Source: Bacteroidota bacterium (GTDB lineage Bacteria; Bacteroidota; Ignavibacteria; Kapaibacteriales; UBA961). Taken from it: 59,184 bases of DNA. Position 1 is the first letter of the stretch. Each line of letters begins with the position of its first letter. The stretch covers positions 1 to 59,184 of the forward strand of contig JAFDZU010000016.1 in NCBI GenBank assembly GCA_018266765.1. The letters are read 5' to 3'. Below the pieces are notes generated by a model, which did not search any database, was not told the DNA's origin, and was given only the letters and a program-made list of their open reading frames with translations. Of this stretch, positions 65-35,502 are shown piece by piece. Position numbers and translations under genes: made by a program.

Positions 65-2089
65 TTATTTTACCGCAGTTTCCACTTTAATTATTACCGT
101 TCTGTTGTAAAATCTGCCTTCGGGTGTGGTGTTTGAGAAGTGCTGTTCGCTTTTGCTGTTTGCAACACTTGGCTTTAGTCCCAATGCTTGTGCGGCGGCA
201 GTTGCACGCATCAAAGCAAGTCGGGAATTATGTTCTTCGTCGCCTGTTTGGTCGGTAAATCCTCGAATAGAAACACGAGAATTTGATGAAATGCGCTTTT
301 TAACAAAGTTGAGAATAGACATATTACGTCTGTCAATAACCGCTTTATCAAAGTCAAACAGAATCAGATTATAGAGGTCAATTGTTTTGTCGGTTAGTTT
401 TTCCTCTTGCTTTTTTTTGAGGGTAATTCGCTCAAGCGGAACGAATCCGACCGCCGTTGTTTCTTGCCCGTAATTATCGCGAACATCAAGTTTATAGGTA
501 ATCGTATCGCTAATTTTATCATTATTGATTTGATTCGTAAGTTGCCAGTCAATTGAAGTTTTAATGTCGGATTTACCTTCGTATTTCATTGCGACGGTGT
601 GATGATAAAGAGCAGAGATGCTCCACTCTGCGAGTCCTGTATCGGTTTTGACATGAGGTTGAAAGCGAAGTATCGGCGGTGTAACCGACCGCAAAGTATC
701 GCTAAGAACAATTGCAGTAATAATTTCACCTTCATCAGAAGAAATTTCTACACGACGGTTTTCCTCACGCCCGTAATCAACCGAAGAATTCGACGGCTTC
801 ACGGGTAAGTTTCGTTGTTCCACAATGAGGCGTTTTGGAGCAATTCCCCATGTTTCCACAAGATATTTTTTTACATTCTCAGCACGCAACCGAGAAAGTG
901 CGCCATTGTTTTTTTCATTCCCTTCATTGCTATTGCATCCTGTGAGTGTAACGGTAGATTTCGGTGCAGTTCTCATACGGTAGCCCACGATATTGAGCAG
1001 TCCGTAATACACTTCCATCGAGTTTTCACCAATATAATCCAAGAGTGAGAACTTATTTGTGTTTTCCGGTGCTATTCGAGAATATTTTCGGGGAATTTCT
1101 GCAGAATTTTCATCAAAAAACACATATTGAAGCAACGGATGAAGTGCAGTCGAGGCAAATTCTTCAATTTTAATATGGTCAATCGGCTGTTCAACGCCAT
1201 CAGAATTTACACCAACTGCTGTTATAGAAGCTGATAACATTGGTTTTTTCTTTTCTGGAATTGGTGGTGGGATTGTATCCTTTTTGACAATAACAGGAAC
1301 TTGCTTTAGTGAATCATCGGGAATTATTGGAGGGATTATAGCCGAAGGTTTGGGGGCGTATTTGAGTGCAATGCCAAAATGTATACCTCGCGCTTGCCAA
1401 TCATACCCGCTAATAATCGGAAGCAACCCAAGAGAAAATTGAAATTCAGGAACAAGAAAAAGTGTTTTGGATGAATTAAGCGGCAACGAATAACTGATGC
1501 CCGAAAGCAGGTTGAGTGCTATTGTATTAGCATTGGGAATAATCCCCGAAGTATCATTTCTAAAGCTCTTTCCATTGGAAAACACTCCGTTATCAGTCGG
1601 CTCCACGATTACTTCAATTTGTGAATAATTCTTTTGGACAACAACTCCACCGCGAACACCAATCTGAAAATTAAACTGAGGAAACAGCTCATAACCAAGC
1701 CACGATTCTGCTCCGACCGAAGCAAGTTGTGTAGCAATTCGATGCTCAAACTGACCTTGAATTCCACCGGCAAGAAGTTCGGATTCGCGGGTTAGTAGAT
1801 TTGCACTATAATTTTCATAGCCGGCTCGGAGTGACATAAACCATTGCCGCGAAAAGGGTATTTCATACAATACGCCGAATGACAAACCGCTTCCGCTTCC
1901 TGTTTGAAATTTCGGACAGCAATTAGGAACACCCGGAAAAGCTCTGAAATCTGCTGTGTGTGAAGTAAACCCGATGTTTCCATACACTCCATATCGAACA
2001 ACTGATGAATCTTTACCCTCAGTTGGTGTTTGAGCCCAAAGTGAAAGCGTAGAAAAAACAAGACAGATAAGCAGAGTTCCAAATTTCAT
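65..2089 (-). CDS. Outer-membrane beta-barrel with two OmpA-like domains
   Basis: Predicted outer-membrane protein of 674 residues. A signal peptide ends near residue 20 (...SLWAQ). Residues ~30-245 alternate polar and aromatic strands typical of a beta-barrel. A proline-rich linker follows (~247-285). Two C-terminal OmpA-like peptidoglycan-binding regions come next: one near 320-455 (TLTGCNSNEG, NRRVEIS) and one near 570-674 (LFDFDKAVIDRRN, GFTDQTGDEEHN, NRTVIIKV). It lies 18 bp downstream of the giant T9SS protein gene on the same strand, so they are probably one transcript. The barrel part looks homologous to the barrel at 26512-27294, which also follows a T9SS cargo gene. I infer a role in surface anchoring or export of the partner; function is not known. 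Confidence 0.8.
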   Translation of the reverse strand: MKFGTLLICLVFSTLSLWAQTPTEGKDSSVVRYGVYGNIGFTSHTADFRAFPGVPNCCPKFQTGSGSGLSFGVLYEIPFSRQWFMSLRAGYENYSANLLTRESELLAGGIQGQFEHRIATQLASVGAESWLGYELFPQFNFQIGVRGGVVVQKNYSQIEVIVEPTDNGVFSNGKSFRNDTSGIIPNANTIALNLLSGISYSLPLNSSKTLFLVPEFQFSLGLLPIISGYDWQARGIHFGIALKYAPKPSAIIPPIIPDDSLKQVPVIVKKDTIPPPIPEKKKPMLSASITAVGVNSDGVEQPIDHIKIEEFASTALHPLLQYVFFDENSAEIPRKYSRIAPENTNKFSLLDYIGENSMEVYYGLLNIVGYRMRTAPKSTVTLTGCNSNEGNEKNNGALSRLRAENVKKYLVETWGIAPKRLIVEQRNLPVKPSNSSVDYGREENRRVEISSDEGEIITAIVLSDTLRSVTPPILRFQPHVKTDTGLAEWSISALYHHTVAMKYEGKSDIKTSIDWQLTNQINNDKISDTITYKLDVRDNYGQETTAVGFVPLERITLKKKQEEKLTDKTIDLYNLILFDFDKAVIDRRNMSILNFVKKRISSNSRVSIRGFTDQTGDEEHNSRLALMRATAAAQALGLKPSVANSKSEQHFSNTTPEGRFYNRTVIIKVETAVK

Positions 2090-2107
2090 AAGTATTCCGG
2101 TGTCCCT

Positions 2108-5100
2108 TTACTTTACTATGCTCATTCTGATGGTTTTTGTTACGTTCGGACACTGCAACATTAAAAAATAAATTCCAACGCCTGTATTTGTAAACTCAAC
2201 GTTCCGTTTGTATGTTCCCGGTTTGCGAATTGCCTCATCAATTACCATAACTTCACGTCCCAACATATCCATCATTGTTACCTTTATAGGTGATTCTTCG
2301 CGAAGAGTATATTCAATTTCAGCACTTCCGTTTGTAGGATTCGGAACGACATTCAAACTAACACTTTTTGTTGGATTATACAGCCGAACTCCGCCTTCGA
2401 AACACAGATTTGTCAAACGAAATTCTCCATCTTGGCGAATAACTTCAACGGGTTTATTCCCATTTAACCACTTGAAAGCTACAAGTTCTAATTTTGTACT
2501 TTCAACTGCTCCAAGCGTTGCTTCGGCAGAAAAAAATGCAATTGTATCTTGTCCGAACTTGTATTCTCCGCTAATATCCATTTCACAAATATCGGGAGAT
2601 GTGCCACTCAAACATGACAGGGTCGGGTCGGTAGCGTGGATAATTGTTCGATTAAATCGCACGGTAGCACTAAATTTCTTTGCACCTGACTTGACTAAAC
2701 CAACTTCTTTTTTGAGAATCAACGCTATCTTAATGTTGTCGCCTGTTTCAGCTTCCGCATCTGCTATGGTAATAAATGTCGAGTCGGGCGTACTGCAATC
2801 TTTTCCGATTCCAATTAATTCGGTTGAATCTCGAATCAAGTCGGTAATCCAAACAATTCGCGCCGCTGTTACTCCCACAGCCAAGGGCATACAGCCAACA
2901 TCTACGCTCATATCTTCACTCGGAAGAAGTGTACGAGGTGCGAAGTTTTTCAACGAATAATCACCTGTATTTCCGCTCAGAACAGCTTGTAGAATTTGCA
3001 AGGGTACACCGCCATCATTGGTTAGCTTAGCTGTTAAAATTTTCTCTACTCCCACACAGACGCTGTCGAAATTAAGTCGTTTCGTAATAGAAATAGATGG
3101 TTGCGGTGTGTCCGTTCCTTCACCTTGAATGATAACGCTATCAACAACAGCACAGGGAATCGTTCCAAAAGCGAGAACAGTGGATGTTTGAATGCCGTCA
3201 ATTGCAAGATAAGTAACCGTAACAGTCAGTTTTTCGTTTGGCAATAATTCAGCGGGAAGCGGCGGTAATATATTCGTTATAGAAAACGGCGGTGCAAGAT
3301 TCGGAACACTTGTAATGGTGAGCTTTGTACTTCCTGTATTCGTAAAAACTACGGGAGCAGAACGGTTTGTACCGTTTTGAATTTTCCCGATATTCACACT
3401 CGCTACATCAGCTTTGAAGCCAACATCTGTTCGCCGACCTTTTACAAATACCGTCTTGGTAATACCGCAAGGATTAAAAGTAATGATCAAGGAATCAACA
3501 AACAAACCATCGTTTTGAGGAGTAACTGTAACATTGAAATTGAGCGGTGTTTTGTTTGGTAGTGCTGTGCCGCTCATAAGCGTCGTTGAGAGAGAATTAC
3601 CACTTTTTACCGAAAGAACGCTTCCGTCGGTTGCATTACTACTCGTGTTTTCTATTTGTAATGTGACCGTAGCAGAACCATTGACACACTTTATTATTTC
3701 ACCGGCATCAAGCGTATCACTAAGGGCAAAACTCACACCTTGCTTTTCACCCGAAAACTTCGCCGAAATAATCTTATTACAAGGACTAAAAGCAAATTGT
3801 AGAGAATCATTGATAGTTCCAGAATTTTTCGGTTCAAAACGAACTTTGAATTGGAGTTTATCGCCTGATTTTATGAATGTGGGTAATACCGGAGATAGTA
3901 TTTTGAATAGTCCATTCCTGATAGTTGAATCAATCCTACATTCCATAGCACTTGGATTTTCAATAGTTATAACTGTATCGCGAAAGACATCACAGCCAAT
4001 AAGCGTTGGGAAAATTGTCATCGGCGGGCTAATAACCAAATTTTGTGAAATACTCTCGCCATTCATTGAAATGGTCACTGTATCATTGCACGATCCGGCC
4101 AGATATGGAATGCCAATAGTTTGATTGTAATTCCCATCAACTGTAGGAGCGTACCGAATTCTAATTTTAATACTGTCACCAACGTTTACCGATTGCGGAA
4201 ATCCCGGACTAACTATACTGTAAGGCGACTGAATCGTTGGCGCAGAAAGTGACAGTACGGTAAGTCCTGTGTTATGAATTGTAATTGTAGTGTCGGTTAC
4301 TTTATTTGTACAACTAATACTTTGTCCGAAATCCACAGTCGCAGGAAAACTTTTTACGGCAAGATTTAGTTTCTCGCCACTCACCTGAATTGGCAGTACT
4401 ATTCCACAAGGCGAACCCTCAAATGTTATCGTTCCCGAGCTTATTCCCGTTGAAACAGGTGCGTATTTTATTTTTATATCAGTTTTCCCGTTTGCTCCAA
4501 TTATAATTGGAAAACCGGTAGTTACGCTAAACGAAGGATTGCTTGGAATTGCCTTTGTTAATTTAGCGACAAGAGAACTATTATTGAAAATTGAAACAGT
4601 TTTTTCTAATGAAGAGGTACAGCTGTTTAATTGTCCAAAATCAATAGAGGACGACGAAAATACAAGAGATGGCGTTGTTATTACTTGAACGAAAACAGTA
4701 TCTTGTGCTTTACATCCTTTTGCATCGGTAACATGAAAAATATAATTATTACTGACAGTTGGTGTGAGAATTGGATTTGTAATTGTAGTAGAACTTAATC
4801 CTGCCGTCGGTGTCCATTGAATAGTATAAGGAGGAGTACCTCCTGCGCTCGAATCAGCAGAAAGCAAAACGCTTTCACCCCGACAAACGACCAAGTCCTT
4901 TCCGGCAAAAGCGATTGGTTTAGGATTCATAATTACTCGCATAGAATCTTTTGATATACATCCTCGCGAATCTGTAGCTGTCAGAAAGTATTGAGTTATT
5001 GGCTGCGATGGCTTTACCGAAGGTCTTAAAAGTGTCGGCGATGTTATAAAAGTAGCCGACGGAGTCCACGAATATGTTAAATTACCGATTCCACCTGAAG

Positions 5101-7855
5101 CTGAGCTGAGTAATACCGCAACAGAATCTTCACATATTTCTATATCCGGCCCGGCATCTACGATAGGCAACGGCGAAACTTCGACAAGAAGCCGAGCACG
5201 AGCCGAACATCCAAATCCATTGGTTACCGTCAGATAGACCGTGTCAAGACCGACGTTTGTCCAAACTACGGATATCGTTTGGAGAGTATTATCCCCTATA
5301 ATTACACCACCTCGCGCTTCCCATCTGAATTTGTCGTCGGATTTGGGCGAGGTATAAACACCCGTCAAGGAATACGAACCAATAGTTCCAATACATTGCG
5401 GGGGTGGAATAGTTGAAGCTGTAACAGTCGGGCCGGGCTTTACAGTAAGAACAACGGTATCTCTTCCGTAACATCCGGTGGCATCCGTTGCAAGAACATT
5501 ATAGGTTAGAGTCGTTTGGGTTGTTCCTGTGTTTTTAGGGAATACTTTTGGATTTGCGATTGTAGAGTCGGAAAGGTTTGCGCGTGTATTCCAACTATAT
5601 GAAACTCCACCAATAGGAGCAGAACCAATTTGAATTGTATCACCGGAGCATAAAACTGAATCTGGACCTGCATTTGTATTCACGCCGGTTGTCGTACAAA
5701 TCTTTGCAATTGTAATGCTATACGGCGTTCCAATTCTGCGGTCAGTCGGAACGGGAAAAGTAGCGGCATTCCCTTGGTGAAATGAATTTATTCCGAAATA
5801 CAACCCAGAACTGCCAAACGGAAGAGCATATCCGCCATAATCTTGGCCGATTGAACCGAATAGTGAGCAATACTGAATATTTCCAGTAGCTTTTTCAAAT
5901 TGAGCAAAAAATCCATCGGTACTTCCACCTTTGTAGGTTTGTTGGATAGTATAAGCCCATGATGGAACGGAAGTGTTTGTCGTAACGGGAAAATCAGTGC
6001 ATTCTGCCGCCAAACCGCCTATCCACAAACCACCGCCACTGTCAAAACCGATGTTCATTCCGTAGTCAATATAGCCGTATTGCCAACTCCCCGCCTGCCC
6101 TGTTCCTCCCAAAAGCCGTGACCACGAAGTTGCGTTTCTATTACCCGTACCATTATCAAGTGTGAAAATACAAACATCAGCCGCACCTTTTATTGCATTT
6201 GAAAAACCCGATGTTACTTCAAATGTTCCTTGATGTCCACTTGTACCGACGACGTAAAGATTACTATTATCGCAAATTATATCATTACCAATTCCACGAC
6301 CGTGAAAGGTTGCCCACACTCGCTGTCCGTTTGCGTCTAACTTCGTAACAGTGATTTTACTTCCAAAAGAATTATTGGTAGGTTGAAAAGTGCTGCTCGT
6401 GGTGGGAAATGTACCCGTTGTACTTCCTGTTGTATAAATATTACCCGAGTTATCAGTTGTTACCGCGGCAAGATAATCGGAATTCGCGGCGTTGGCAATA
6501 TCTCCGCAAAACGTAGCCCATTGCCGTGCGCCATCGGGATTAAGTTTGATAACAACTCCAGTACCTCCGCCCAAAGGATTTGCCGGCTGAAAAACAGCTC
6601 CAAATGTCGGGAAATTTATTGACACACTGTACCCTACAATTATTACCTTACCCAATGGATCTACAGTTGCACCGGTTGCAATATCATCATTCGAGCCGCC
6701 GTAATACGTTGCCCATTCTCGTGTACCATTCGAAAATAGTTTAATAATAAACATATCTACCGTGCCGCCGCCATATACATTTTGAGTGGCATTTTGTCGA
6801 GGAAAATCTGTGCTTGCGGTTGCGCCGACATAAACAATATTATTATTAGCATCAAGTGTCAGGCAATTCGTGAATAAATCACCAAAAACAACGGGTTCTC
6901 CCCCACTACCACCATAATAAGTTCCCCAAATACGGTTTCCATCTTTATCAAATTTCGCTAAATAACAGTCGTTACCACCGCCATATGTTTGTTGAATTAC
7001 GCCCGGAGTTGTCGGGAACGTAGATGTTGGCGCAGAACCTGCAATGATGACATTACCACCACCATCTACTTTCATTCCTAAAATTCCAAAATCCGAAAGT
7101 ACTTCATTTTGATACACGCCCCACACAACCATCGGGTCAATAATAAGTGTTTGTGTCTTATCATATTCTCCAACGGAAAAACCATACGTTCCTTCGGTTT
7201 GCTGAAAGTGAGTTTCTACTTCTGATCCGTTTTGAAAGGAAATCGGAGATTCATCTTGAAGAGAGCCAAAGGGAGTTATCGCAGTAATCAATGTAGAATT
7301 TTGCTCGACACGTGCACCTTTATATCGCATTGCAATTTGGTGATAATCGCCTCCCGGTCGAACGATAAATTCATTCTTAAGTCCGCGTTCGGTAGTTTGC
7401 CACACAACGTCTATGTTAGGATAAAGATCGTGAACGACAAGTTTTCCAAACGTCGGAACATGAGTAATTCCTTGTGGGCAGTGGGCTAAGTAATAATTCG
7501 TGTATTCTGCAGTTTGCTCTGTTCCCGTGATACGAGCATTTGGATTTGCTCCTATATATTCTACATCCATTCGATAGAGTTCGGTAATGTTGGCTTGGGT
7601 ATTTGGTATTTGTGGCGTAGGTTTCTTTTCTGTTTTGGGGAATACATAGCTTACTTGCGCTGAAGTAAAATATGCTTGAACTCCTCCTTTTGTTCCTGTA
7701 TAAAATTTCACATCAGGAATCGGTTGGTTGTCAATGCCAATAATTTGTCCTTGATTTTCAATAAATCGTGAGGACGAAGTATTGAATTGCGCTTGAATTT
7801 CTTCGGCGTATGAAAGTTGAAAAACAACCAGCACAATGAAAAATAAAGTACGCAT
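2108..7855 (-). CDS. Giant T9SS-exported surface protein (SBBP, Ig/PKD, choice-of-anchor D, cohesin-like)
   Basis: Secreted protein of 1915 residues. A signal peptide (to ~22) precedes a conserved N-terminal region (FIENQGQI). SBBP-type beta-propeller repeats (YYGGS, VGATASTDFP, SSNDD-like units) run to about residue 720. Ig/PKD-like repeats with NAGPDSVLCSGD, DAGPDIEICED and FAGKDLVVCRGE signatures follow. A series of choice-of-anchor-D domains with SIDFGQLNSC and VDFGQSISC starts comes next (~1085-1640), then a cohesin-like domain (~1690-1800). The protein ends in a T9SS type A sorting domain (VVPNPTNGSAEIEYTL to the end). It is the first gene of a probable two-gene unit with the OmpA-barrel gene. 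Adhesion or surface display is inferred; ligand unknown. Confidence 0.85.
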   Translation of the reverse strand: MRTLFFIVLVVFQLSYAEEIQAQFNTSSSRFIENQGQIIGIDNQPIPDVKFYTGTKGGVQAYFTSAQVSYVFPKTEKKPTPQIPNTQANITELYRMDVEYIGANPNARITGTEQTAEYTNYYLAHCPQGITHVPTFGKLVVHDLYPNIDVVWQTTERGLKNEFIVRPGGDYHQIAMRYKGARVEQNSTLITAITPFGSLQDESPISFQNGSEVETHFQQTEGTYGFSVGEYDKTQTLIIDPMVVWGVYQNEVLSDFGILGMKVDGGGNVIIAGSAPTSTFPTTPGVIQQTYGGGNDCYLAKFDKDGNRIWGTYYGGSGGEPVVFGDLFTNCLTLDANNNIVYVGATASTDFPRQNATQNVYGGGTVDMFIIKLFSNGTREWATYYGGSNDDIATGATVDPLGKVIIVGYSVSINFPTFGAVFQPANPLGGGTGVVIKLNPDGARQWATFCGDIANAANSDYLAAVTTDNSGNIYTTGSTTGTFPTTSSTFQPTNNSFGSKITVTKLDANGQRVWATFHGRGIGNDIICDNSNLYVVGTSGHQGTFEVTSGFSNAIKGAADVCIFTLDNGTGNRNATSWSRLLGGTGQAGSWQYGYIDYGMNIGFDSGGGLWIGGLAAECTDFPVTTNTSVPSWAYTIQQTYKGGSTDGFFAQFEKATGNIQYCSLFGSIGQDYGGYALPFGSSGLYFGINSFHQGNAATFPVPTDRRIGTPYSITIAKICTTTGVNTNAGPDSVLCSGDTIQIGSAPIGGVSYSWNTRANLSDSTIANPKVFPKNTGTTQTTLTYNVLATDATGCYGRDTVVLTVKPGPTVTASTIPPPQCIGTIGSYSLTGVYTSPKSDDKFRWEARGGVIIGDNTLQTISVVWTNVGLDTVYLTVTNGFGCSARARLLVEVSPLPIVDAGPDIEICEDSVAVLLSSASGGIGNLTYSWTPSATFITSPTLLRPSVKPSQPITQYFLTATDSRGCISKDSMRVIMNPKPIAFAGKDLVVCRGESVLLSADSSAGGTPPYTIQWTPTAGLSSTTITNPILTPTVSNNYIFHVTDAKGCKAQDTVFVQVITTPSLVFSSSSIDFGQLNSCTSSLEKTVSIFNNSSLVAKLTKAIPSNPSFSVTTGFPIIIGANGKTDIKIKYAPVSTGISSGTITFEGSPCGIVLPIQVSGEKLNLAVKSFPATVDFGQSISCTNKVTDTTITIHNTGLTVLSLSAPTIQSPYSIVSPGFPQSVNVGDSIKIRIRYAPTVDGNYNQTIGIPYLAGSCNDTVTISMNGESISQNLVISPPMTIFPTLIGCDVFRDTVITIENPSAMECRIDSTIRNGLFKILSPVLPTFIKSGDKLQFKVRFEPKNSGTINDSLQFAFSPCNKIISAKFSGEKQGVSFALSDTLDAGEIIKCVNGSATVTLQIENTSSNATDGSVLSVKSGNSLSTTLMSGTALPNKTPLNFNVTVTPQNDGLFVDSLIITFNPCGITKTVFVKGRRTDVGFKADVASVNIGKIQNGTNRSAPVVFTNTGSTKLTITSVPNLAPPFSITNILPPLPAELLPNEKLTVTVTYLAIDGIQTSTVLAFGTIPCAVVDSVIIQGEGTDTPQPSISITKRLNFDSVCVGVEKILTAKLTNDGGVPLQILQAVLSGNTGDYSLKNFAPRTLLPSEDMSVDVGCMPLAVGVTAARIVWITDLIRDSTELIGIGKDCSTPDSTFITIADAEAETGDNIKIALILKKEVGLVKSGAKKFSATVRFNRTIIHATDPTLSCLSGTSPDICEMDISGEYKFGQDTIAFFSAEATLGAVESTKLELVAFKWLNGNKPVEVIRQDGEFRLTNLCFEGGVRLYNPTKSVSLNVVPNPTNGSAEIEYTLREESPIKVTMMDMLGREVMVIDEAIRKPGTYKRNVEFTNTGVGIYFLMLQCPNVTKTIRMSIVK

Positions 7856-26511: not shown

Positions 26512-27294
26512 TTAAAAATGAGTTAAGACCACAATTCCCAGAGAATAGTCCCAACTTTCCCACGATGTTACGGGTGAATGACTCATAAGCGGTAATCCAA
26601 TCGTAACTTTAGGCGTGGCATACATTCCGCGACCAAGCTCTGCATCATACCCAATACCAAGTAATGGAGTTAGATAGAAAGTACGAATCCCTGCAAGCGA
26701 AGTTTGTCCGTATTGAATCGCTTGTGTAAATTCTATCGGAGTAAGAATAGTCTCAGTTTGCTCTACTGTATTTTTAAGTGCAAGTGTTCCGCGAACGCCC
26801 GCCAAGATATGAAAATGAGTAGGAGCAAATCGCCATTTAATACCACCTTGCATTTCAATTGTATGAAACTGAGCTTTCATCTGAAATTCACGAGAGAGGG
26901 CATATACCACACCGCCCAGTTTGAAAGGTTGCGACTCGGGAATTGAGCTAAAAGTCACCGAAGAAAATCTATATCCCGCTTCTCCCCAAACCGAAAGTGC
27001 ACCTGTTTCCCAGTATTCTCCTGCAAGTGCAAGAGAAAATCCAGTTTCTTTGCCTAATTTATAATCACCGCAACGATACTCCTCACCAAGAGTGTAAATA
27101 TCTGCTGAGTGAAAACCATAATTTACTTTTGCACCGCCACCCCAAAATAGTGTAGGTGAACCGCTCGGCAATCGAGAGGAATATTGCCAGTCGAACCCTT
27201 GAGCTCCTACATTTATAGCACAGAAAATTAGTACAATAAATGGCAATACAAAACATACAGCAGAATTTTTTGGACTAACTATTTGGTATATCAT
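26512..27294 (-). CDS. Outer-membrane beta-barrel paired with a T9SS protein
   Basis: Predicted barrel of 260 residues from the ATG at 27294, which overlaps the stop of the upstream T9SS gene by 4 bp (ATGA); a longer frame exists but ignores this coupling. The signal segment (residues ~8-29) ends ...NVGAQG. The rest shows alternating strands and ends in an aromatic residue (VVLTHF), as outer-membrane proteins do. Its sequence order (YGFHSADIY, EAGYRFSSV, GGIKWRF, LAGVRGTLAL, QTETI) parallels the barrel part of the protein at 65-2089. No OmpA domain is present. Probably assembled by BAM; role with its partner is inferred only. Confidence 0.75.
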   Translation of the reverse strand: MIYQIVSPKNSAVCFVLPFIVLIFCAINVGAQGFDWQYSSRLPSGSPTLFWGGGAKVNYGFHSADIYTLGEEYRCGDYKLGKETGFSLALAGEYWETGALSVWGEAGYRFSSVTFSSIPESQPFKLGGVVYALSREFQMKAQFHTIEMQGGIKWRFAPTHFHILAGVRGTLALKNTVEQTETILTPIEFTQAIQYGQTSLAGIRTFYLTPLLGIGYDAELGRGMYATPKVTIGLPLMSHSPVTSWESWDYSLGIVVLTHF

Positions 27295-29591
27295 CGAGCT
27301 ACCACAATGTTTTGCACAGCAGTAAATAATCCTGATTGCATTACACAATAATAAACTCCGGGCGAAAGTCCACCGACCGATATTGCCGCCTGATATGTGC
27401 CCGATTCGATTGTTCCATCGGCAATCGTGCCGACCTCAGTACCAAAAGAAGTGTACATTTTCACACTCGCAGTTGTGGTATAGGGCAATGAATATTCAAC
27501 CCATGCAATTTCATCCGATGGGTTAGGCGCGATAGAATGAAGTTGGAATGGAGTTCCGGCACCCAAAATTACTTGAAATGCTTTTCCGCAAAGTGAATCC
27601 AATACAAAAATTCCATTTTTGGGTTTCACTGGAAATACTTCACTACAACTTTGCGTTCCGGCTTTTGCTCCTACCACCAAGGACGAAGATGTCAATCTGC
27701 TGAGATACGTGTTAAATATTAAATAAGCAAGAGTGTCACGCTCGTAAAAATTTCTATCGGGTGCTGTAATCGTAAACTTTAATGTATTCCCATTGAGAAT
27801 TGGCGATTTGATTGTAGCTCCTTCGGAAGCCGTACCGAGAGAATTTAATCGAATAAATTCCAGTCCAAGAGTATCTTGAATAATAACCGACAACTCCATG
27901 TTACCTACCGAACTGATAGTCTTGCTTGTCAGTAGCGGAATAGAAATCTGCCTTCCGGCTCGTGAAGTAGTCCGTTCGGGAAATGATAGTGATACAACCG
28001 GCGGCTGGACAGATTTACCGCGAAGGTGAACACGAACAGTATCGCTTGGCTCATTTGATACACCCGAATTCGTTGCAATTAAAAGTTCAGCGGTAAAATT
28101 TCCGGTATCTGCCGGTGCTGTAAATGTAACATTTAAATTACGCTGTTGATTAGCAGGAATTTCGGCATCCGGAATTGAAGTCGTAAATACTCCAATTGGT
28201 CGAATTATTGCTGAATTTACCTTGAGCGGAGCATTACCACTATTTTTCATTTGCAAGGTAATTGTTTTGCTTAGTGAAGCGCATGATTTATCAATCGGTA
28301 AATACAATGAGTCAAAATCAATAGTTGAATTAGGTGCATTTAATAGTACAAGTGTCGGTTTGGCGGCACTCGCAATAATAGTCATTTTGTGCTGTTTTGC
28401 TGAATCGGGTGCCGTTACTATTCTACTACGAATATCACTCCCAAGCAGATAATTTACCGAAAAATTACCTGGTTCTTTGGGTTTAAAAACTATAATTGCA
28501 GTGTCAAGTTCGCCTGATTTATTTGCTGATTTTGGTCGTAAATCGTGGTCGTCTCTAAATTTTTTAAGGATATAAAAATATGCGGTATCGCCTGCTAAGT
28601 GTTGTGAAATCAAACCAAAAGGGATGTTTCCATTATTACGTATAACCAAACTGATGATGATAGAATCATCAACCCGTGCATTATTAGCAATAGAAACAAT
28701 ATTAGAAGTAACGATTTGAGCATTACCAGGAGTTGCAGAGGTTTGATTGTCAATATCAATAATTTGCTGAACACCAATCCCTCGTAACTTTACAGTAGCA
28801 GAATCAGTTTGATTGTCAATATTCGGTGAGTAAATTATACTATACTGTGCGCTGTCTAATCCTAATTCTAATGGTCTGAATTGTATTGGAAACGGTTTAC
28901 TGCTGAGTCCAACAAACGTAAATGAATCAATATTTGCCGGCGGAAAAAATTCCTTATTAAATCGAGTTACAAGTGGAGTAAAGTTCTGCTTGGTAACACT
29001 TACATTAAACTCAGTTGTGTTTTTCACGAGCCAATCACGTTGAACGGGCAACGGAACTCCTACATACACCGAATCAAAATCCAATATTTCACGCCGTGAA
29101 GCAAGAAAATCCTTGGTTTTTAAGACTGTAAGTAGAAAGTCATGTTTAGCTACCAGTGTTGTATCGCTTGGAAGAGAGAGAGCAAGTTTCAATAATGCTA
29201 CTCGATTACTAAGCGGATATTGTGAGGGTGAAATATCATTTTGAGGAATATACGATATGGTAAATGATTTTCTTTGTGAGGAATTCACTTGAAATGGAAA
29301 GCCCATCAAATATGAGTTAAATTCTGTGTATTCTAACGTAGCCGGATTAATTCTTAGAACAACAAAATGCGGTGCTTTGTTTTCGGCAATTTGTAGATTG
29401 GAAGTGCCACTATTATCAAGTGTTACCGAGCGAATAACAGGTGTGGTGTTTTTGTAGAAGACAATATCAAAATCAATCGTATCCGAACGATTTCCTGTCT
29501 CATTTGTGTAATAAATCTCACCTTTCGGCTGGGCAAGTGCCGCCGTTACAGCCGAAGCGAGAAGAATAAAGATGATAATTCCATGTTTCAT
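27291..29591 (-). CDS. T9SS-exported choice-of-anchor-D / cohesin-like protein
   Basis: Secreted protein of 766 residues. The signal peptide ends ...TAALAQP (~21). Several choice-of-anchor-D-type domains follow (VTLDNSGTSNLQI, ILDFDSVYVGVPL, TIDFDSLYLPID with MKNSGNAPLKVN). A cohesin-like domain lies near 540-660 (VVSLSFPERTTSRAGRQISIPLL, MELSVIIQDTLGLEFI). It ends in a T9SS type A tail (SIAPNPSDEIAWVEYSL). The order anchor-D, cohesin-like, sorting domain matches the C-terminal half of the giant protein at 2108-7855. It lies 47 bp after nuoN and is coupled to the barrel gene downstream. Confidence 0.85.
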   Translation of the reverse strand: MKHGIIIFILLASAVTAALAQPKGEIYYTNETGNRSDTIDFDIVFYKNTTPVIRSVTLDNSGTSNLQIAENKAPHFVVLRINPATLEYTEFNSYLMGFPFQVNSSQRKSFTISYIPQNDISPSQYPLSNRVALLKLALSLPSDTTLVAKHDFLLTVLKTKDFLASRREILDFDSVYVGVPLPVQRDWLVKNTTEFNVSVTKQNFTPLVTRFNKEFFPPANIDSFTFVGLSSKPFPIQFRPLELGLDSAQYSIIYSPNIDNQTDSATVKLRGIGVQQIIDIDNQTSATPGNAQIVTSNIVSIANNARVDDSIIISLVIRNNGNIPFGLISQHLAGDTAYFYILKKFRDDHDLRPKSANKSGELDTAIIVFKPKEPGNFSVNYLLGSDIRSRIVTAPDSAKQHKMTIIASAAKPTLVLLNAPNSTIDFDSLYLPIDKSCASLSKTITLQMKNSGNAPLKVNSAIIRPIGVFTTSIPDAEIPANQQRNLNVTFTAPADTGNFTAELLIATNSGVSNEPSDTVRVHLRGKSVQPPVVSLSFPERTTSRAGRQISIPLLTSKTISSVGNMELSVIIQDTLGLEFIRLNSLGTASEGATIKSPILNGNTLKFTITAPDRNFYERDTLAYLIFNTYLSRLTSSSLVVGAKAGTQSCSEVFPVKPKNGIFVLDSLCGKAFQVILGAGTPFQLHSIAPNPSDEIAWVEYSLPYTTTASVKMYTSFGTEVGTIADGTIESGTYQAAISVGGLSPGVYYCVMQSGLFTAVQNIVVAR

Positions 29592-29638: not shown

Positions 29639-31081
29639 TTAATTTCCGAACAGCAATTTAATAACATCAAGCAAACCAGCCGGCATCAATCCAAGAAATA
29701 CAACTGCAACAGCTGAAACAGCAAGCGTAATACTTGCAATTCCCGGTAATTGTTGGGTTGATTCGCCCGACTCATTTGGTTCTGTGAAGTACATTTTTAC
29801 GATTAACCCGATATAAAAATAAACAGAAATAATCGAAGAAATAACTGCAATAATCGTTAGCCATGTATATCCTGACTCAATAGCCGCAGTAAAGAGATAA
29901 TATTTACCAAAAAAACCTGCAAACGGAGGAATACCGGCAAGAGACAACATAAAGATAGTCATAAGTGCCGCCAAAACAGGATGACGTTTGCTCAGTCCTG
30001 CATAATCTTCTATTTCAAGGTTTTTCTCTCCGCTTCGTTCGAGAATTGATACAATCACAAATGCGCCAAGTTGCATAAATAAATATGCAGAAAGATAATA
30101 GAGTATTCCACTTACTCCGCGGGCATGATGAGCAGATATTGCTACCAAACCCATCATCAAATACCCTGCATGCGCCACCGAAGAATAGGCAAGCATACGT
30201 TTGATATTGGTTTGGGTAAGTGCGCTAATATTACCGACAAGCATTGTTGCCGCAGAAATTATTGCGAGAATAATTTGAATTTTCATTTCAGTGTCAGCCG
30301 GAGATACGATAGCAACAATTGGCATAAATGCTGAAAATGCCGCTATCTTTCCTGCTGTACTCATAAATGCGGTTACCACCGTTGGCGCGCCTTGATAGAC
30401 ATCCGGTGCCCATTGATGGAAAGGAAATGCCGCCGCTTTAAAGCTGAGTCCGATAAGGAGAAGTCCTATTCCAATCATCATTAGTGACGGAAAACGGAGT
30501 TCATGTTGCGCCGCCATAAATATTTGATTATAATCAAAACTGCCGGTTGCACCATAGATGAGAGCCATTCCATACACAAGAAATCCGGTTGCAAATGCTC
30601 CAAGTAAAAAATATTTGAGGGATGCTTCCACAGAGCGAACCGAAGAGCGCATATACCCCGATAGAATATAAAAACAAACCGACATAATCTCTATACCAAT
30701 AAACAAAATAAGTAAACTATTGGCATGAGCCATTATCATCATTCCGCTGACTGCAAAGAGAATTAACGAGTGAAATTCATCGTGTTCCAAGTTCTCACGT
30801 TGCATATATGGACGAGCCGCTATCAACGTCAGCAATGCACCCATGCAAAACAGTATATCGAAAAACGCACCGAAACTACCGACTGTTATCATTCCGTTGA
30901 ATGCAGTTCCATTATGTTTGAGCGTCCAAGCCGCCAAAACGCCTGTGATTCCGAGTGTTAGCCAACTTAACGTAAACGTAATTTTAGAACTTTTCTTAAT
31001 AAGTGCATCCACTACCATCAGAATGGTTGCCATAATAGAAAGAAAGGTTATCGGCGCAGAAAGGAGGAAATCTTGTTCCAT
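29639..31081 (-). CDS. nuoN: NADH-quinone oxidoreductase subunit N
   Basis: Antiporter-like proton-translocating membrane subunit of complex I; 480 residues with about 14 hydrophobic helices. The key charged residues are present: Glu in GIEIMSVCFYILSGY (helix 5) and Lys in LSFKAAAFPFHQWAPDVYQGAPT (helix 7), followed by STAGKIAAF. The conserved NIKRMLAYSSVAHAGYLMMG and AGIPPFAGFFGKYYLF segments are intact. nuoM lies upstream on the same strand but is separated from it by two unrelated genes, which is unusual. Confidence 0.96.
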   Translation of the reverse strand: MEQDFLLSAPITFLSIMATILMVVDALIKKSSKITFTLSWLTLGITGVLAAWTLKHNGTAFNGMITVGSFGAFFDILFCMGALLTLIAARPYMQRENLEHDEFHSLILFAVSGMMIMAHANSLLILFIGIEIMSVCFYILSGYMRSSVRSVEASLKYFLLGAFATGFLVYGMALIYGATGSFDYNQIFMAAQHELRFPSLMMIGIGLLLIGLSFKAAAFPFHQWAPDVYQGAPTVVTAFMSTAGKIAAFSAFMPIVAIVSPADTEMKIQIILAIISAATMLVGNISALTQTNIKRMLAYSSVAHAGYLMMGLVAISAHHARGVSGILYYLSAYLFMQLGAFVIVSILERSGEKNLEIEDYAGLSKRHPVLAALMTIFMLSLAGIPPFAGFFGKYYLFTAAIESGYTWLTIIAVISSIISVYFYIGLIVKMYFTEPNESGESTQQLPGIASITLAVSAVAVVFLGLMPAGLLDVIKLLFGN

Positions 31082-31128
31082 GTAATATCCGTTAATAGTC
31101 TTTGATATTCGTAATAATTATCTGTTCA

Positions 31129-31392
31129 TTATTTTGCAACTGCAATCGGACGAAGCATAACCAATCCGACTGTGTATACTTCACCGCGAGTACCGTCAGT
31201 AGTTTGCCTGCGAATTTTTGCTTCCATAGTGTCGTTACTGACTGATTCTACAGCATAGGTTATACCTTCGGTCATTGTCATAGCAAATTCCACAATATCA
31301 CCCGTTTTTACCGATTTCCATTGGTCAGTTGTGTCATGTCCGTTCGGTTTCCAAACGTATTGCTTCGCAAAAAAATTCTTTATAAATCCCAT
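31129..31392 (-). CDS. Small protein of unknown function within the nuo block
   Basis: Protein of 87 residues, no signal peptide or membrane helix. It begins MGFIKNFFAKQYVWKP and reads as a small beta-rich domain (VEFAMTMTEGITYAVESV, MEAKIRRQTTDG, VYTVGLVMLRPIAV). I do not recognise a family. It lies 47 bp from nuoN and 46 bp from the glycosidase-like gene on the same strand. Regular spacing and an uninterrupted frame favour a real gene. Confidence 0.6.
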   Translation of the reverse strand: MGFIKNFFAKQYVWKPNGHDTTDQWKSVKTGDIVEFAMTMTEGITYAVESVSNDTMEAKIRRQTTDGTRGEVYTVGLVMLRPIAVAK

Positions 31393-31438
31393 ATTGAAAA
31401 CTCCGTCTTTATGTTCTGTTGAACGTTAATTTCTGAAA

Positions 31439-33295
31439 TTAATTCCTGCTCGTTATTGAATTACCACAAGCAACACTCCTCATGTATTGCATGCCGTCAT
31501 CTGTCGTAATTACCATAAAATAAACACCATACACATAATTTGATATTGGAATAAACGTGCTGTTTGTTTTGCAAACCACTTCTCCCATCACGTTATACAT
31601 CGTAATATTTTTAATTGGACGAGAAGCGTGCACTGTTACCGAAGTTTCATCTGAATTAATGGTAATTGATACGTCAGAATTACTCTTTTCTTTCTCTTCT
31701 ACTGCCGATGGTTGATTTATCAACTCACGGATTGCCTTCAACTTGAAATTTCTATCCGGCTTTGTGTAGTCATCCGTAATTCCCCAACAGCCATACCTGT
31801 TATATCCCGAAGTGATTGTAAAATAAAGAGCTAACCCGCCTCCAAGCTCTGACCAACCTCCTTTGTAATTGTATTGTATAACATCACCCATTTGCTTGGT
31901 TCTGTGAGCCAAAATTTGATTGCCGAGATTTGTAGTTCCACCACCCGAAGGAACTCCCGGGCCACCTTCATACGAGGTACAACCGCCTTTAAAACCCCAA
32001 TTTTTTGCTTTATTGATATGATTCAGCCGATATGTACTTGCCTTTGTATTTGTAATTTGGTCGGTAATATCTTCGTTCATACCTTGATTTATTACCAATG
32101 GATCGGCATTACCACTTTTTGTAGAACCAAAATATAACGCTGAACTTGTTGCATAAATATAGTCTTTTGGCTCACCGAATGTTTTCTTGATATAATTTAA
32201 GTGATTATCACTTCTGCCGTTATACGATGCTTGCCCCGAAAGAATCACTCTTATTTTATTATTAATTTCATCTTTACCGAATACCGTAGCAAACCAGTTT
32301 GATACTTCAACTGTTCTACGGGCATAGTTTTCGTCGAATGTAATTCCATTTGATACAGCTTGCGCTTGATTATACGGGCCGTGCGTTGCTTGAGTCGGAC
32401 TCCAAACTTCATTGCTGTTTTCAACATAAATATGAATCGAAGGGTCAAGTTTTTCTTTTAATAATTTTGCGAGATTCACCACATAATCAGAATCGCATGA
32501 AATATGAACGCAAATCCAAATATCTTTTTTGAGAATATTCGACAGTTCGATAATATATTCCCAGCACCAACCATCGCGTTTACCGTTTATTGTTGCTAAC
32601 GATTGCTGTGCCGCGTCTGCCGGAATTTTTCGTTTGTCCCACGTAGTTTTTGTCGGGAAACTCGGCTCTCCATTCCAAACATTCTGCACATTGTAATAGC
32701 GATAACAAGCAAAATCTGCTGATTTACAAAGAGTTATAAACTCATCGGTAAAAATTTTAGAAGTTCCGAGTTCGTATCCCGGACGCATCACTTTTAACTT
32801 CGTAATTCCCGAATTGAGCGTATCTTGCGGCGTTCTTTGGGTTTTTGTGAAATTCAAAAAAACAAGACCGTGATTCGCATTCGGATAGCCACCTACATTT
32901 ATATCAAAGTACGTTGTATTTGTGAGTGTGTCGTAAGATTTATTTGCAATAGATACACTTGTTCCCGACACATTTACTGTTGCAAATCCCGTAAAACTAC
33001 CTTTATACGTGCCGCTATAATCTATTCTATATTGTTCAGGGTCATCAATCGAGTTTATCCATTCCGGCACCGGTCTTCCGTCAAGAAGTACAAGGTCAAA
33101 ATCGCTTTTAGGCCAACCAAAACTATCAAATCCACTTGCTTTACTATACCTATTGGTATGATTGATGATATTAGTAAATGCGCCGTTATCATCAAGATTG
33201 ACACCCAATTGTACCGGCTTAATCTGGCTATAACTATTCTGCAAACCCAATAGGATAACTATGACAAGCGCAGATAATTTTGTAAAATTGAGCAT
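31439..33295 (-). CDS. Secreted glycoside-hydrolase-like protein with T9SS tail
   Basis: Secreted protein of 618 residues with a signal peptide ending ...NSYSQI (~24). The N-terminal region (ASGFDSFGWPKSDFDLVLLDG) and the motif IYVENSNEVWSPTQ resemble a group of large cellulose-binding/glycosidase-like proteins. The Asn-Glu pair in that motif and the Glu in TSYEGGPG are placed like the acid/base and nucleophile of clan GH-A enzymes; this is inference. The C-terminal ~90 residues (VTVHASRPIKNITMYNVMG) look like a T9SS sorting domain. It is inserted between nuoM and nuoN with 30-46 bp gaps. Substrate unknown. Confidence 0.7.
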   Translation of the reverse strand: MLNFTKLSALVIVILLGLQNSYSQIKPVQLGVNLDDNGAFTNIINHTNRYSKASGFDSFGWPKSDFDLVLLDGRPVPEWINSIDDPEQYRIDYSGTYKGSFTGFATVNVSGTSVSIANKSYDTLTNTTYFDINVGGYPNANHGLVFLNFTKTQRTPQDTLNSGITKLKVMRPGYELGTSKIFTDEFITLCKSADFACYRYYNVQNVWNGEPSFPTKTTWDKRKIPADAAQQSLATINGKRDGWCWEYIIELSNILKKDIWICVHISCDSDYVVNLAKLLKEKLDPSIHIYVENSNEVWSPTQATHGPYNQAQAVSNGITFDENYARRTVEVSNWFATVFGKDEINNKIRVILSGQASYNGRSDNHLNYIKKTFGEPKDYIYATSSALYFGSTKSGNADPLVINQGMNEDITDQITNTKASTYRLNHINKAKNWGFKGGCTSYEGGPGVPSGGGTTNLGNQILAHRTKQMGDVIQYNYKGGWSELGGGLALYFTITSGYNRYGCWGITDDYTKPDRNFKLKAIRELINQPSAVEEKEKSNSDVSITINSDETSVTVHASRPIKNITMYNVMGEVVCKTNSTFIPISNYVYGVYFMVITTDDGMQYMRSVACGNSITSRN

Positions 33296-33325
33296 ACGTT
33301 TTTACGAATATATCAACTATCCAAC

Positions 33326-34900
33326 TTACTTCTGGGCTTGGGCTTTCTTTTCAACAAGCGGATAGATTGTTTTTCCAAATTTCAATGTTTCTAACTTTCC
33401 TACCAATGCTTGTGTAGATTGTTCGGAAATAACCATGAATGTTTTCGGATAAACACCGAGCCAAATAATTAAAATAGTAATAGGAATTAACTGCCAATAT
33501 TCCGAAGCTGTTAAATCATGCAATCCATGATTTTTCGGATTGTCGTTTGTACCAAACATTACACGTTGGAACATCCACAGTAAATATACTGCTGCAAAAA
33601 TCACACCCGTAGCACTAATAATACTAAGCCAATGATTATTCAAAAACGGTGATGTAAATCCACCCAAAAGCGTAAGATATTCTCCCACAAAACCATTTAA
33701 TCCGGGTAAACCTACCGATGCCAACATTGCAATAGTAAAAAGAACCGCAAACTTCGGCATCACCTTTGTAATTCCTCCAAATTCAGATATTTCCCGCGTG
33801 TGACGTCGCTCATAAATAATTCCTACACAAAGGAATAACATACCTGTTGAAAGTCCGTGATTTACCATTTGAATTATTGCGCCTTGCAGTCCTTCGGGAG
33901 TCATTGAGCAGATTCCGAGTACAACAAATCCCAAGTGACTGACCGATGAATACGCTACTAATTTCTTTATATCTGTTTGTACCATCGCTACTAATGCGCC
34001 GTAGATAATCCCAACGACAGCGAGCCATGCAATCGGTGTCGCATATTCAAACATTGCCTGTGGAAACAGTTCTAAGTTAAATCGTATTAATCCATACGTT
34101 CCCATTTTGAGCAATACACCGGCAAGAATTACTGAGCCGGCTGTAGGAGCTTGAACGTGAGCATCCGGCAACCACGTATGAAATGGGAATAGTGGAACTT
34201 TAATACAGAATGAAAGCGCAAATGCAAGAAACAGCCATTTTTGAATTTCGAGTGGAATCGTGGGTGCAATTTCACGGAGTTTCATCAAATCTGCTGTGAA
34301 ATGTCCGCCCGGAAGTCCTTGTGCGTAAATTCCTAGCCAAACAATTGCCACAAGCATCAACAGCGAACCGACCAATGTATAAAGGAAGAACTTGACGGCG
34401 GCATAAATACGATCTTTTCCGCCCCAAATTCCGATAAGAAAATACATCGGAATTAAAATAAGTTCCCAAAAAACATAGAATAAGAATGTATCCATTGCTA
34501 CAAATACACCGAGCATTCCGAATTGCAACAACAGCATCCACGCATAATATTCTTTTTCGCGTTTTTGAATTGAACCAAATGAACAGAGAATTGCAATCGG
34601 CGTAATAAATGTTGTGAGGAGAACCATCAACAGCGACATTCCGTCCACTCCGACTCGGAAACCTGCGTCAAGCGTCGGAATCCACATTGCATTCATCGTA
34701 AATTGAAAGCTCGACTGCGTGTGATCGAATCCAAAATACAAGAACAGCGAAGCAAAAAACGAAAGAAGCGAAACTCCAAGCGCAGTATATTTTATACCCT
34801 TCGACTGGTCATTATTGATAAAAAGCACGGCAAGGAAGCCAAGCAATGGAAGGAAAAGAGTAACAAGTAACATTCCCATAAGTTTATCAGTTAAGTTCAA
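33326..34900 (-). CDS. nuoM: NADH-quinone oxidoreductase subunit M
   Basis: Antiporter-like proton-pumping subunit of complex I, 524 residues. Conserved features: Glu in FYVFWELILIPMYFLIGIWGG, Lys in LSFCIKVPLFPFHTWLPDAHVQAPTAGS, LAGVLLKMGTYGL, VQTDIKKLVAYSSVSHLGFV and the late-helix GLPGLNGFVGEYL. Length and helix count fit the family. DUF420 lies 29 bp upstream, with nuoL before that. The next gene downstream (30 bp) is a secreted glycosidase-like protein rather than nuoN. Confidence 0.97.
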   Translation of the reverse strand: MNLTDKLMGMLLVTLFLPLLGFLAVLFINNDQSKGIKYTALGVSLLSFFASLFLYFGFDHTQSSFQFTMNAMWIPTLDAGFRVGVDGMSLLMVLLTTFITPIAILCSFGSIQKREKEYYAWMLLLQFGMLGVFVAMDTFLFYVFWELILIPMYFLIGIWGGKDRIYAAVKFFLYTLVGSLLMLVAIVWLGIYAQGLPGGHFTADLMKLREIAPTIPLEIQKWLFLAFALSFCIKVPLFPFHTWLPDAHVQAPTAGSVILAGVLLKMGTYGLIRFNLELFPQAMFEYATPIAWLAVVGIIYGALVAMVQTDIKKLVAYSSVSHLGFVVLGICSMTPEGLQGAIIQMVNHGLSTGMLFLCVGIIYERRHTREISEFGGITKVMPKFAVLFTIAMLASVGLPGLNGFVGEYLTLLGGFTSPFLNNHWLSIISATGVIFAAVYLLWMFQRVMFGTNDNPKNHGLHDLTASEYWQLIPITILIIWLGVYPKTFMVISEQSTQALVGKLETLKFGKTIYPLVEKKAQAQK

Positions 34901-34929
34901 CCAAAATTCAATTTAAATTTTAACCGCAA

Positions 34930-35499
34930 TTAATGCGTATAATACGGCGATATCATCAAATAAACAACCACACCCGTTATCGTAACATAGAGCCATATCG
35001 GAAGAGTCCACCGAGCTATTTTTTTATGTTTAGCAAATTCGCCGCGCCATGAACGGCTAATCGTAAAAAGTGCAAGCGGAACAATAACTGCCGCAAGAAC
35101 TATATGTGTAATCAATATAAAAAAATACACTGCTTTTATCATTCCTTCACCACCAAAATGAGTGGAAGGTGCTTGCGAATGATACGTTATATACGACACC
35201 AAAAACAAGCATGAGAGAATAAAAGCCGAAAGCATAACCGTCTTGTGTTGCTTAAATTTTCTTTGTCTGATAAATATATAACCAATCGAAAGCAAACAAG
35301 CACATGTTCCGTTAATAAAGGCGTTCAACTTCGGAAGCATCGAAACATCAATTTTCCCTAATGAAAGAGTTTGCGGGAAATAAATTAGGAATGATACCAA
35401 TGCAACTACGACAATTGTCAGCGAATATATTACTACTGAAAGCGACTGTTCGCTTATTCCATGAATACCCGATTGCTTGTCAGCTTTTAATTCATCCAT
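34930..35499 (-). CDS. DUF420 domain-containing membrane protein
   Basis: Membrane protein of 189 residues with five or so helices, matching DUF420: LPKLNAFINGTCACLLSIGY, the basic stretch RQRKFKQHKTVMLSAFILS, SYITYHSQAPSTHFGG, and FILITHIVLAAVIVPLALFTI with HKKIARWTLPIWLYVTITGVVVYLM. DUF420 proteins are usually found beside cytochrome oxidase assembly genes. Here the gene starts 3 bp after the nuoL stop and sits between nuoL and nuoM, so it should be translated with complex I. The conserved His residues in helices could bind metal or heme; this is not established. Confidence 0.85.
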   Translation of the reverse strand: MDELKADKQSGIHGISEQSLSVVIYSLTIVVVALVSFLIYFPQTLSLGKIDVSMLPKLNAFINGTCACLLSIGYIFIRQRKFKQHKTVMLSAFILSCLFLVSYITYHSQAPSTHFGGEGMIKAVYFFILITHIVLAAVIVPLALFTISRSWRGEFAKHKKIARWTLPIWLYVTITGVVVYLMISPYYTH

Positions 35500-35502
35500 T
35501 CT

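Follow-up and report, generated by a model that had tools for sequence, protein, structure and literature searches.

In the bacterial order Kapaibacteriales, genes for an outer-membrane barrel fused to OmpA-like domains (barrel-OmpA, BO) are paired with genes for T9SS cargo, and this cargo/barrel pairing is real, general and far above chance in the order. We propose, with a probability of roughly 0.55, that BO proteins are dedicated docking partners and peptidoglycan anchors for their own cargo, which they would bind, retain at the surface and connect to peptidoglycan. Surface retention of T9SS cargo without attachment to LPS is still being worked out, and to our knowledge cognate pairs of cargo and partner are known only for type B C-terminal sorting domains (CTDs) and FadL-type carriers.

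Two cargo/barrel pairs in the window

The analysis started from a window of 59,184 nucleotides, positions 1 to 59,184 of contig JAFDZU010000016.1, which contains two cargo/barrel pairs with the following features:

2108..7855, minus strand: T9SS cargo, 1915 aa, with signal peptide, DUF7948 (residues 31-242), SBBP repeat, PKD/Ig-like and choice-of-anchor D repeats and a CTD
2111..2356, minus strand: CTD of this cargo, predicted seven-stranded beta-sandwich of the type A CTD kind
2144..2152, minus strand: Cys-Pro-Asn turn between the last two strands of the cargo CTD, at the position that marks barrel-paired CTDs
65..2089, minus strand: BO gene, 674 aa, with its start codon 18 bp past the cargo stop
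1358..1996, minus strand: predicted 8-stranded outer-membrane barrel domain (residues 32-244), matching the barrels of OprF (Z 16.8) and OmpA (Z 15.9)
1913..1924, minus strand: Asn-Cys-Cys-Pro in barrel loop 1 (probably extracellular), within the best-conserved barrel segment; C57 in 96 and C58 in 86 of 121 proteins
725..1147, minus strand: OmpA-like domain 1 (residues 315-455), matching Pal (Z 12.2)
416..691, minus strand: beta-rich Ig-like domain between the OmpA domains (residues 467-558), from the structure model
77..382, minus strand: OmpA-like domain 2 (residues 570-671), with the GxTD and N-R motifs kept
27291..29591, minus strand: second T9SS cargo, 766 aa, with Por_Secre_tail
26512..27294, minus strand: second barrel, stand-alone, 260 aa, without OmpA domain; its ATG overlaps the stop codon of the second cargo as ATGA

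The original prediction described a 1915-aa surface protein with a T9SS tail that is followed after 18 bp by a barrel with two OmpA-like domains, and the open reading frames, their exact coordinates and the domains were all confirmed. A hydrophobic signal is visible at the N-terminus of the cargo, and its C-terminus matched PF18962 (Por_Secre_tail) with 25.9 bits in the protein scan, just below the cut-off of 27 bits, and with 31.1 bits in the genome search, above that cut-off. With a signal peptide and a predicted Por_Secre_tail beta-sandwich, the protein has these two attributes of T9SS type A cargo, while TIGR04183 gave no match to it at E 0.1. Pfam assigned residues 31-226 of the 674-aa BO protein to a PF13568 barrel and also detected two stretches of the OmpA kind.

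Homology between the two barrels of the window had been proposed by eye. A profile that was made from 20 relatives of the first barrel, with the second barrel excluded, found the second barrel at E = 3e-16, so this homology is correct and the similarity is significant. The coordinates 27291-29591, to which the proposal referred, are those of the second cargo itself, and its barrel is encoded by the next open reading frame (26512-27294). Separately from both pairs, a T9SS cargo gene at 31439-33295 was found within a run of NADH dehydrogenase/antiporter-type subunit genes (window positions 29639-37476).

Pairing, CTD subtype and co-divergence in the order

Barrel matches were present in all 41 genomes searched in the order, with 2 to 21 per genome and about 17 BO paralogues in the genome of the window (3.7 Mb); the relatives that carry names are Ignavibacteria and Candidatus Kapaibacterium MAGs. 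From about 35 genomes of the order, 122 non-redundant BO genes were picked by similarity of the barrel protein and not by neighbourhood, and pairing was scored on the stretches around these genes, ignoring small open reading frames. The upstream neighbour was known for 119 BO genes, and 68 of these (57%) had a CTD gene on the same strand directly upstream. This number is a minimum, as the CTD profile missed the CTD-like C-termini of a few upstream proteins. At the same loci, a CTD gene took this position for 18 of 457 control genes (odds ratio 34), so the suspected dedicated pairing is widespread and homologues of the barrel adjoin T9SS cargo genes far from rarely. The two genes overlapped in 34 of the 68 pairs (19 times by exactly 4 bp), lay within 70 bp of each other in 29 and within 300 bp in the remaining 5, i.e. 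63 pairs had an overlap or a gap of at most 70 bp. A CTD gene downstream was found for only 12 of the 122 BO genes. Pairing was present in all nine families sampled.

Around 43% of the BO genes had no detected CTD gene upstream, and their upstream neighbours were mostly unrelated housekeeping genes. Conversely, the majority of cargo genes had no barrel partner. Paired cargo was larger (median 1237 versus 723 aa), and a DUF7948-like N-terminal motif was rejected as the feature shared by the cargo, since it was found in only 7 of 48. Three genomes (loci L076, L115 and L146) share a block after an endonuclease III-like gene in which one cargo gene is flanked by two different BO genes, and at L134 (G004:C69, 36658-46860) tandem cargo reading frames of 498 and 1175 aa with nearly identical CTDs are followed by a BO gene after the second only.

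In the model of the CTD of the 1915-aa cargo, which is a beta-sandwich (pLDDT 83), the Cys-Pro-Asn turn connects strands 6 and 7. Among solved structures, its best matches included CTD-bearing PorU (Z 10.6) and the CTD of mirolase (Z 9.4, rmsd 2.2 over 77), with generic Ig-like folds scoring close. TIGR04131, which represents type B CTDs, had no match in the cargo, and none in the 41 genomes in a search in which the positive control was silent as well. A type B CTD was therefore rejected for this cargo, given its Por_Secre_tail-like CTD and the type A-like model; the CTD is predicted to be type A-like, and not type B as in SprB-type cargo.

The CTD of the 1915-aa cargo shares the predicted beta-sandwich of type A CTDs (TIGR04183/PF18962). 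Paired CTDs differ from these in the turn between the last two strands, which tends to be [T/S/C]-P-[T/N/S/A] rather than glycine-containing. In the genome of the window, a barrel of this family followed 5 of 9 CTDs with this proline turn, compared to 4 of 118 other CTDs. Since the motif was first noticed in this genome, the fair test lies outside its genus, where 29 of 61 paired and 3 of 31 unpaired CTDs had the proline turn (p 4e-4). After clustering at 45% identity, the proline turn occurred in 26/56 paired versus 6/141 other CTDs and glycine in the turn in 8/56 versus 95/141, and the clustered tests outside the own genus still held (p 0.004 for proline, 2e-4 for glycine). Paired CTDs thus tend to belong to a subtype marked by a proline turn in the terminal hairpin, with the turn itself found in only about half of them. 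The export signal of CTDs is known to reside in their last 22 residues (PMC4804311), and the proline turn falls inside this segment. The near-invariant C-terminal lysine of type A CTDs also seemed to be lost in paired cargo (12/71 versus 74/155; 9/56 versus 65/141 after clustering), a difference that we do not claim because it had a p of 0.16 outside the own genus.

Barrel and cargo have diverged together. In 67 pairs, CTD distance correlated with barrel distance at r 0.59 and with the distance of the OmpA module at r 0.46 (Mantel), and the partial values were 0.45 and 0.20, respectively. When near-orthologues were removed, the 54 diverged pairs still gave 0.38 for the barrel and 0.20 for the OmpA module. 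The cargo segment just before the CTD co-varied with the barrel too (r 0.53), so co-divergence is not specific to the CTD. These correlations support co-inheritance of cargo and partner with an emphasis on the barrel, and they are not proof of a CTD interface.

Fold of the barrel and relation to known T9SS partners

An AlphaFold2 model of the BO protein, calculated from 5 sequences and of modest confidence (mean pLDDT 66, pTM 0.33), shows 8 barrel strands followed by a linker and by two OmpA domains with a beta-rich domain between them. NspA was among the best structure matches of the barrel together with OprF and OmpA, and the first OmpA domain had the Pal/OmpA fold. The barrel is accordingly a predicted 8-stranded barrel of the OmpA/OprF type. 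BO proteins have the predicted N-terminal 8-stranded barrel, the linker and a C-terminal OmpA domain in common with the OmpA/OprF major outer-membrane proteins, from which they differ by the duplicated OmpA domain with the Ig-like insert, the large paralogue family, the conserved, Cys-Cys-containing loop 1 and the linkage to cargo genes.

Conservation within the barrel is highest in loop 1, which contains Asn-Cys-Cys-Pro in most members; this loop would be extracellular if the chain is arranged as even-stranded barrels with a periplasmic C-terminus usually are. The adjacent Cys-Cys pair (window positions 1916-1921) occurs in the majority of BO proteins from the order. We considered that it might pair with a cysteine in the CTD and dropped this idea, as any cysteine was found in only 21 of 76 paired CTDs.

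The original prediction compared the barrel to SprF, and neither kinship with SprF/PorP nor kinship with PorV held. TIGR03519/PF11751 (PorP/SprF) did not match the window barrels in the Pfam and NCBIfam searches, NF033709 (PorV) did not match BO, and the cargo CTD is type A-like and not type B. Since PorV and PorP-like carriers are 14-stranded barrels of the FadL family (PMC9143113), BO with its 8 predicted strands does not belong to that family. The genome of the window contains SprA, PorU and five PorV-family proteins whose genes are distinct from BO. A second PorU-like match was located in a 1954-aa frame near SprA (G000 C43:65881-69546, L255), below the PorU family cut-off.

Despite the unrelated fold, BO might act as a carrier, i.e. 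it might be needed for export as SprF is for SprB and take the cargo over from the SprA translocon, with the OmpA domains being secondary. In type B systems, the cargo gene lies directly before the gene for an SprF/PorP-like carrier, several paralogous pairs occur per genome and the carrier is believed to keep its cargo on the cell surface (PMC9143113, PMC12618676). The BO locus resembles SprB-SprF, PG1035-PorP and Fjoh_3952-3951 in its order of cargo gene and then barrel gene (18-bp gap in the window, 68/119 in the order) and in the number of paralogous pairs, and this gene order as found for type B cargo with SprF/PorP shuttles (PMC12618676) speaks for a carrier function. The same can be said of the difference of paired CTDs in the very hairpin that carries the export signal and of the search for PorP/SprF, which gave no match in the genome of the window and none above the cut-off in the 41 genomes, a genome-wide absence that is less certain because the control genomes were silent. 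However, SprB-SprF and PG1035-PorP combine a 14-stranded FadL-family barrel with a type B CTD, whereas BO combines a predicted 8-stranded OmpA-type barrel with a CTD that keeps the type A fold, and five PorV-family proteins are present. Moreover, attachment to peptidoglycan would make the barrel a poor shuttle to translocons and back. We consider a shuttle function unlikely, yet it is the best of the alternatives to a docking partner and anchor.

Somewhat less probable still is that BO is a generic OmpA-like envelope tether which is merely co-expressed with cargo, so that adjacency would reflect shared regulation and not binding. The OmpA/OprF architecture is ubiquitous, and both the many BO genes next to housekeeping genes and the number of copies per genome would fit such a role. 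On the other hand, the enrichment of pairs is strong, directional and translationally coupled, and it is accompanied by a CTD subtype and by co-divergence of the barrel in particular. The extracellular loops of a generic tether would also be expected to be variable, in contrast to the conservation of loop 1.

PorE is the other T9SS component with an OmpA domain. BO resembles it in its OmpA-like C-terminus (two stretches with Pal/OmpA fold and predicted peptidoglycan binding), but NF052230 (PorE) scored 28 bits against a cut-off of 600 bits, with the best stretch inside one OmpA domain only, and neither TPR and propeller domains nor a full-length NF052230 match was found in BO. At one locus (G000 C97, 7547-11413; L036) a split form was observed, which consists of a separate 304-aa barrel gene and, after it, an 893-aa gene that combines PD40-like repeats with the double-OmpA module of the BO family, and thus resembles PorP plus PorE. 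That BO is an accessory part of the T9SS machine, which replaces PorP/PorE in tying rings or translocons to the wall and lies near cargo by operon history, is improbable. In its favour are the OmpA domain of PorE, the association of small amounts of PorE-PorP with PorK/N (PMC9143113), the absence of PorP matches above the cut-off in the 41 genomes (with silent controls) and the split form, but many divergent paralogues per genome, each with its own cargo, fit better to cargo-specific partners.

Proposed anchoring of cargo and the wider family

If BO is the docking partner and anchor of its cargo, the cargo would leave through the cell's own T9SS, of which SprA, PorV-type and PorU proteins are present, by means of its variant type A CTD. 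At the surface, the BO barrel may then capture and hold its own cargo by the CTD or the C-terminal part through conserved extracellular loops, such as the Asn-Cys-Cys-Pro-bearing loop 1, and the two OmpA domains may clamp peptidoglycan, whereby the giant cargo would be fixed to the cell wall. The presence of two OmpA domains makes the predicted role as peptidoglycan anchor plausible, with the limit that some paired barrels, such as that of the second pair in the window, lack an OmpA domain. BO would unite in one chain the tasks that PorP and PorE share in the case of the type B protein PG1035. PorE-PorP-PG1035 and the Fjoh_3950-3951-3952 operon were proposed to form static, wall-anchored complexes (PMC9143113, PMC12618676). 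As BO is predicted to do, they offer a barrel and a peptidoglycan-binding OmpA domain to one cargo as a proposed anchor for non-moving cargo, but they consist of two proteins with the TPR and propeller domains of PorE, whereas BO is one fused chain with two OmpA domains, and the barrels are unrelated. A similar arrangement is known from AtaA-TpgA of Acinetobacter, where the gene for a giant trimeric autotransporter adhesin is followed in the same operon by that of an OmpA-domain protein, which binds peptidoglycan and supports surface display (PMC5861075). This system likewise has the gene for a giant surface protein before that for an OmpA-domain protein, and differs in using type V secretion and in TpgA having no barrel.

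Next to type A/PorV and type B/SprF, the pairs could represent a third way in which T9SS cargo is handled, where a proline-turn CTD subtype is kept after export and bound by the loops of a cognate OmpA-type barrel, tying the cargo to peptidoglycan, and the same family could serve ice-binding-domain repeat proteins in other Bacteroidota as a general family of adhesin anchors. We regard this extended scheme as tentative, at slightly less than even odds. The BO family itself suggests that, for type A-like cargo, a lineage in which PorP/SprF was not detected relies on an unrelated barrel that carries a cell-wall anchor in the same chain. The turn of the last CTD hairpin provides a sequence handle, and dozens of natural pairs are available for recognition tests. 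A likely function can be named for a family that was so far annotated only as OmpA-like. Our literature search on T9SS in Kapabacteria or Ignavibacteria with OmpA partners found nothing relevant and, among the papers covered, no description of the BO pairing.

In a survey of the phylum, the barrel was found in 32 of 198 genomes. It was present in many copies in Kapaibacteriales and in two other families of the class, whereas genomes outside these groups had one or two. BO relatives that are paired with ice-binding-domain proteins lack the Cys-Cys pair of loop 1. No T9SS CTD was detected by the CTD profile in the seven proteins concerned, which have Big_5 or InlB repeats and a C-terminal Ice_binding (DUF3494) domain. 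In three other Bacteroidota families, these distant BO relatives were located directly downstream of such ice-binding-domain repeat proteins at 7 of 7 loci (L241, L242, L243, L244, L246, L247 and L249), which supports a general role of the BO family beside large surface proteins.
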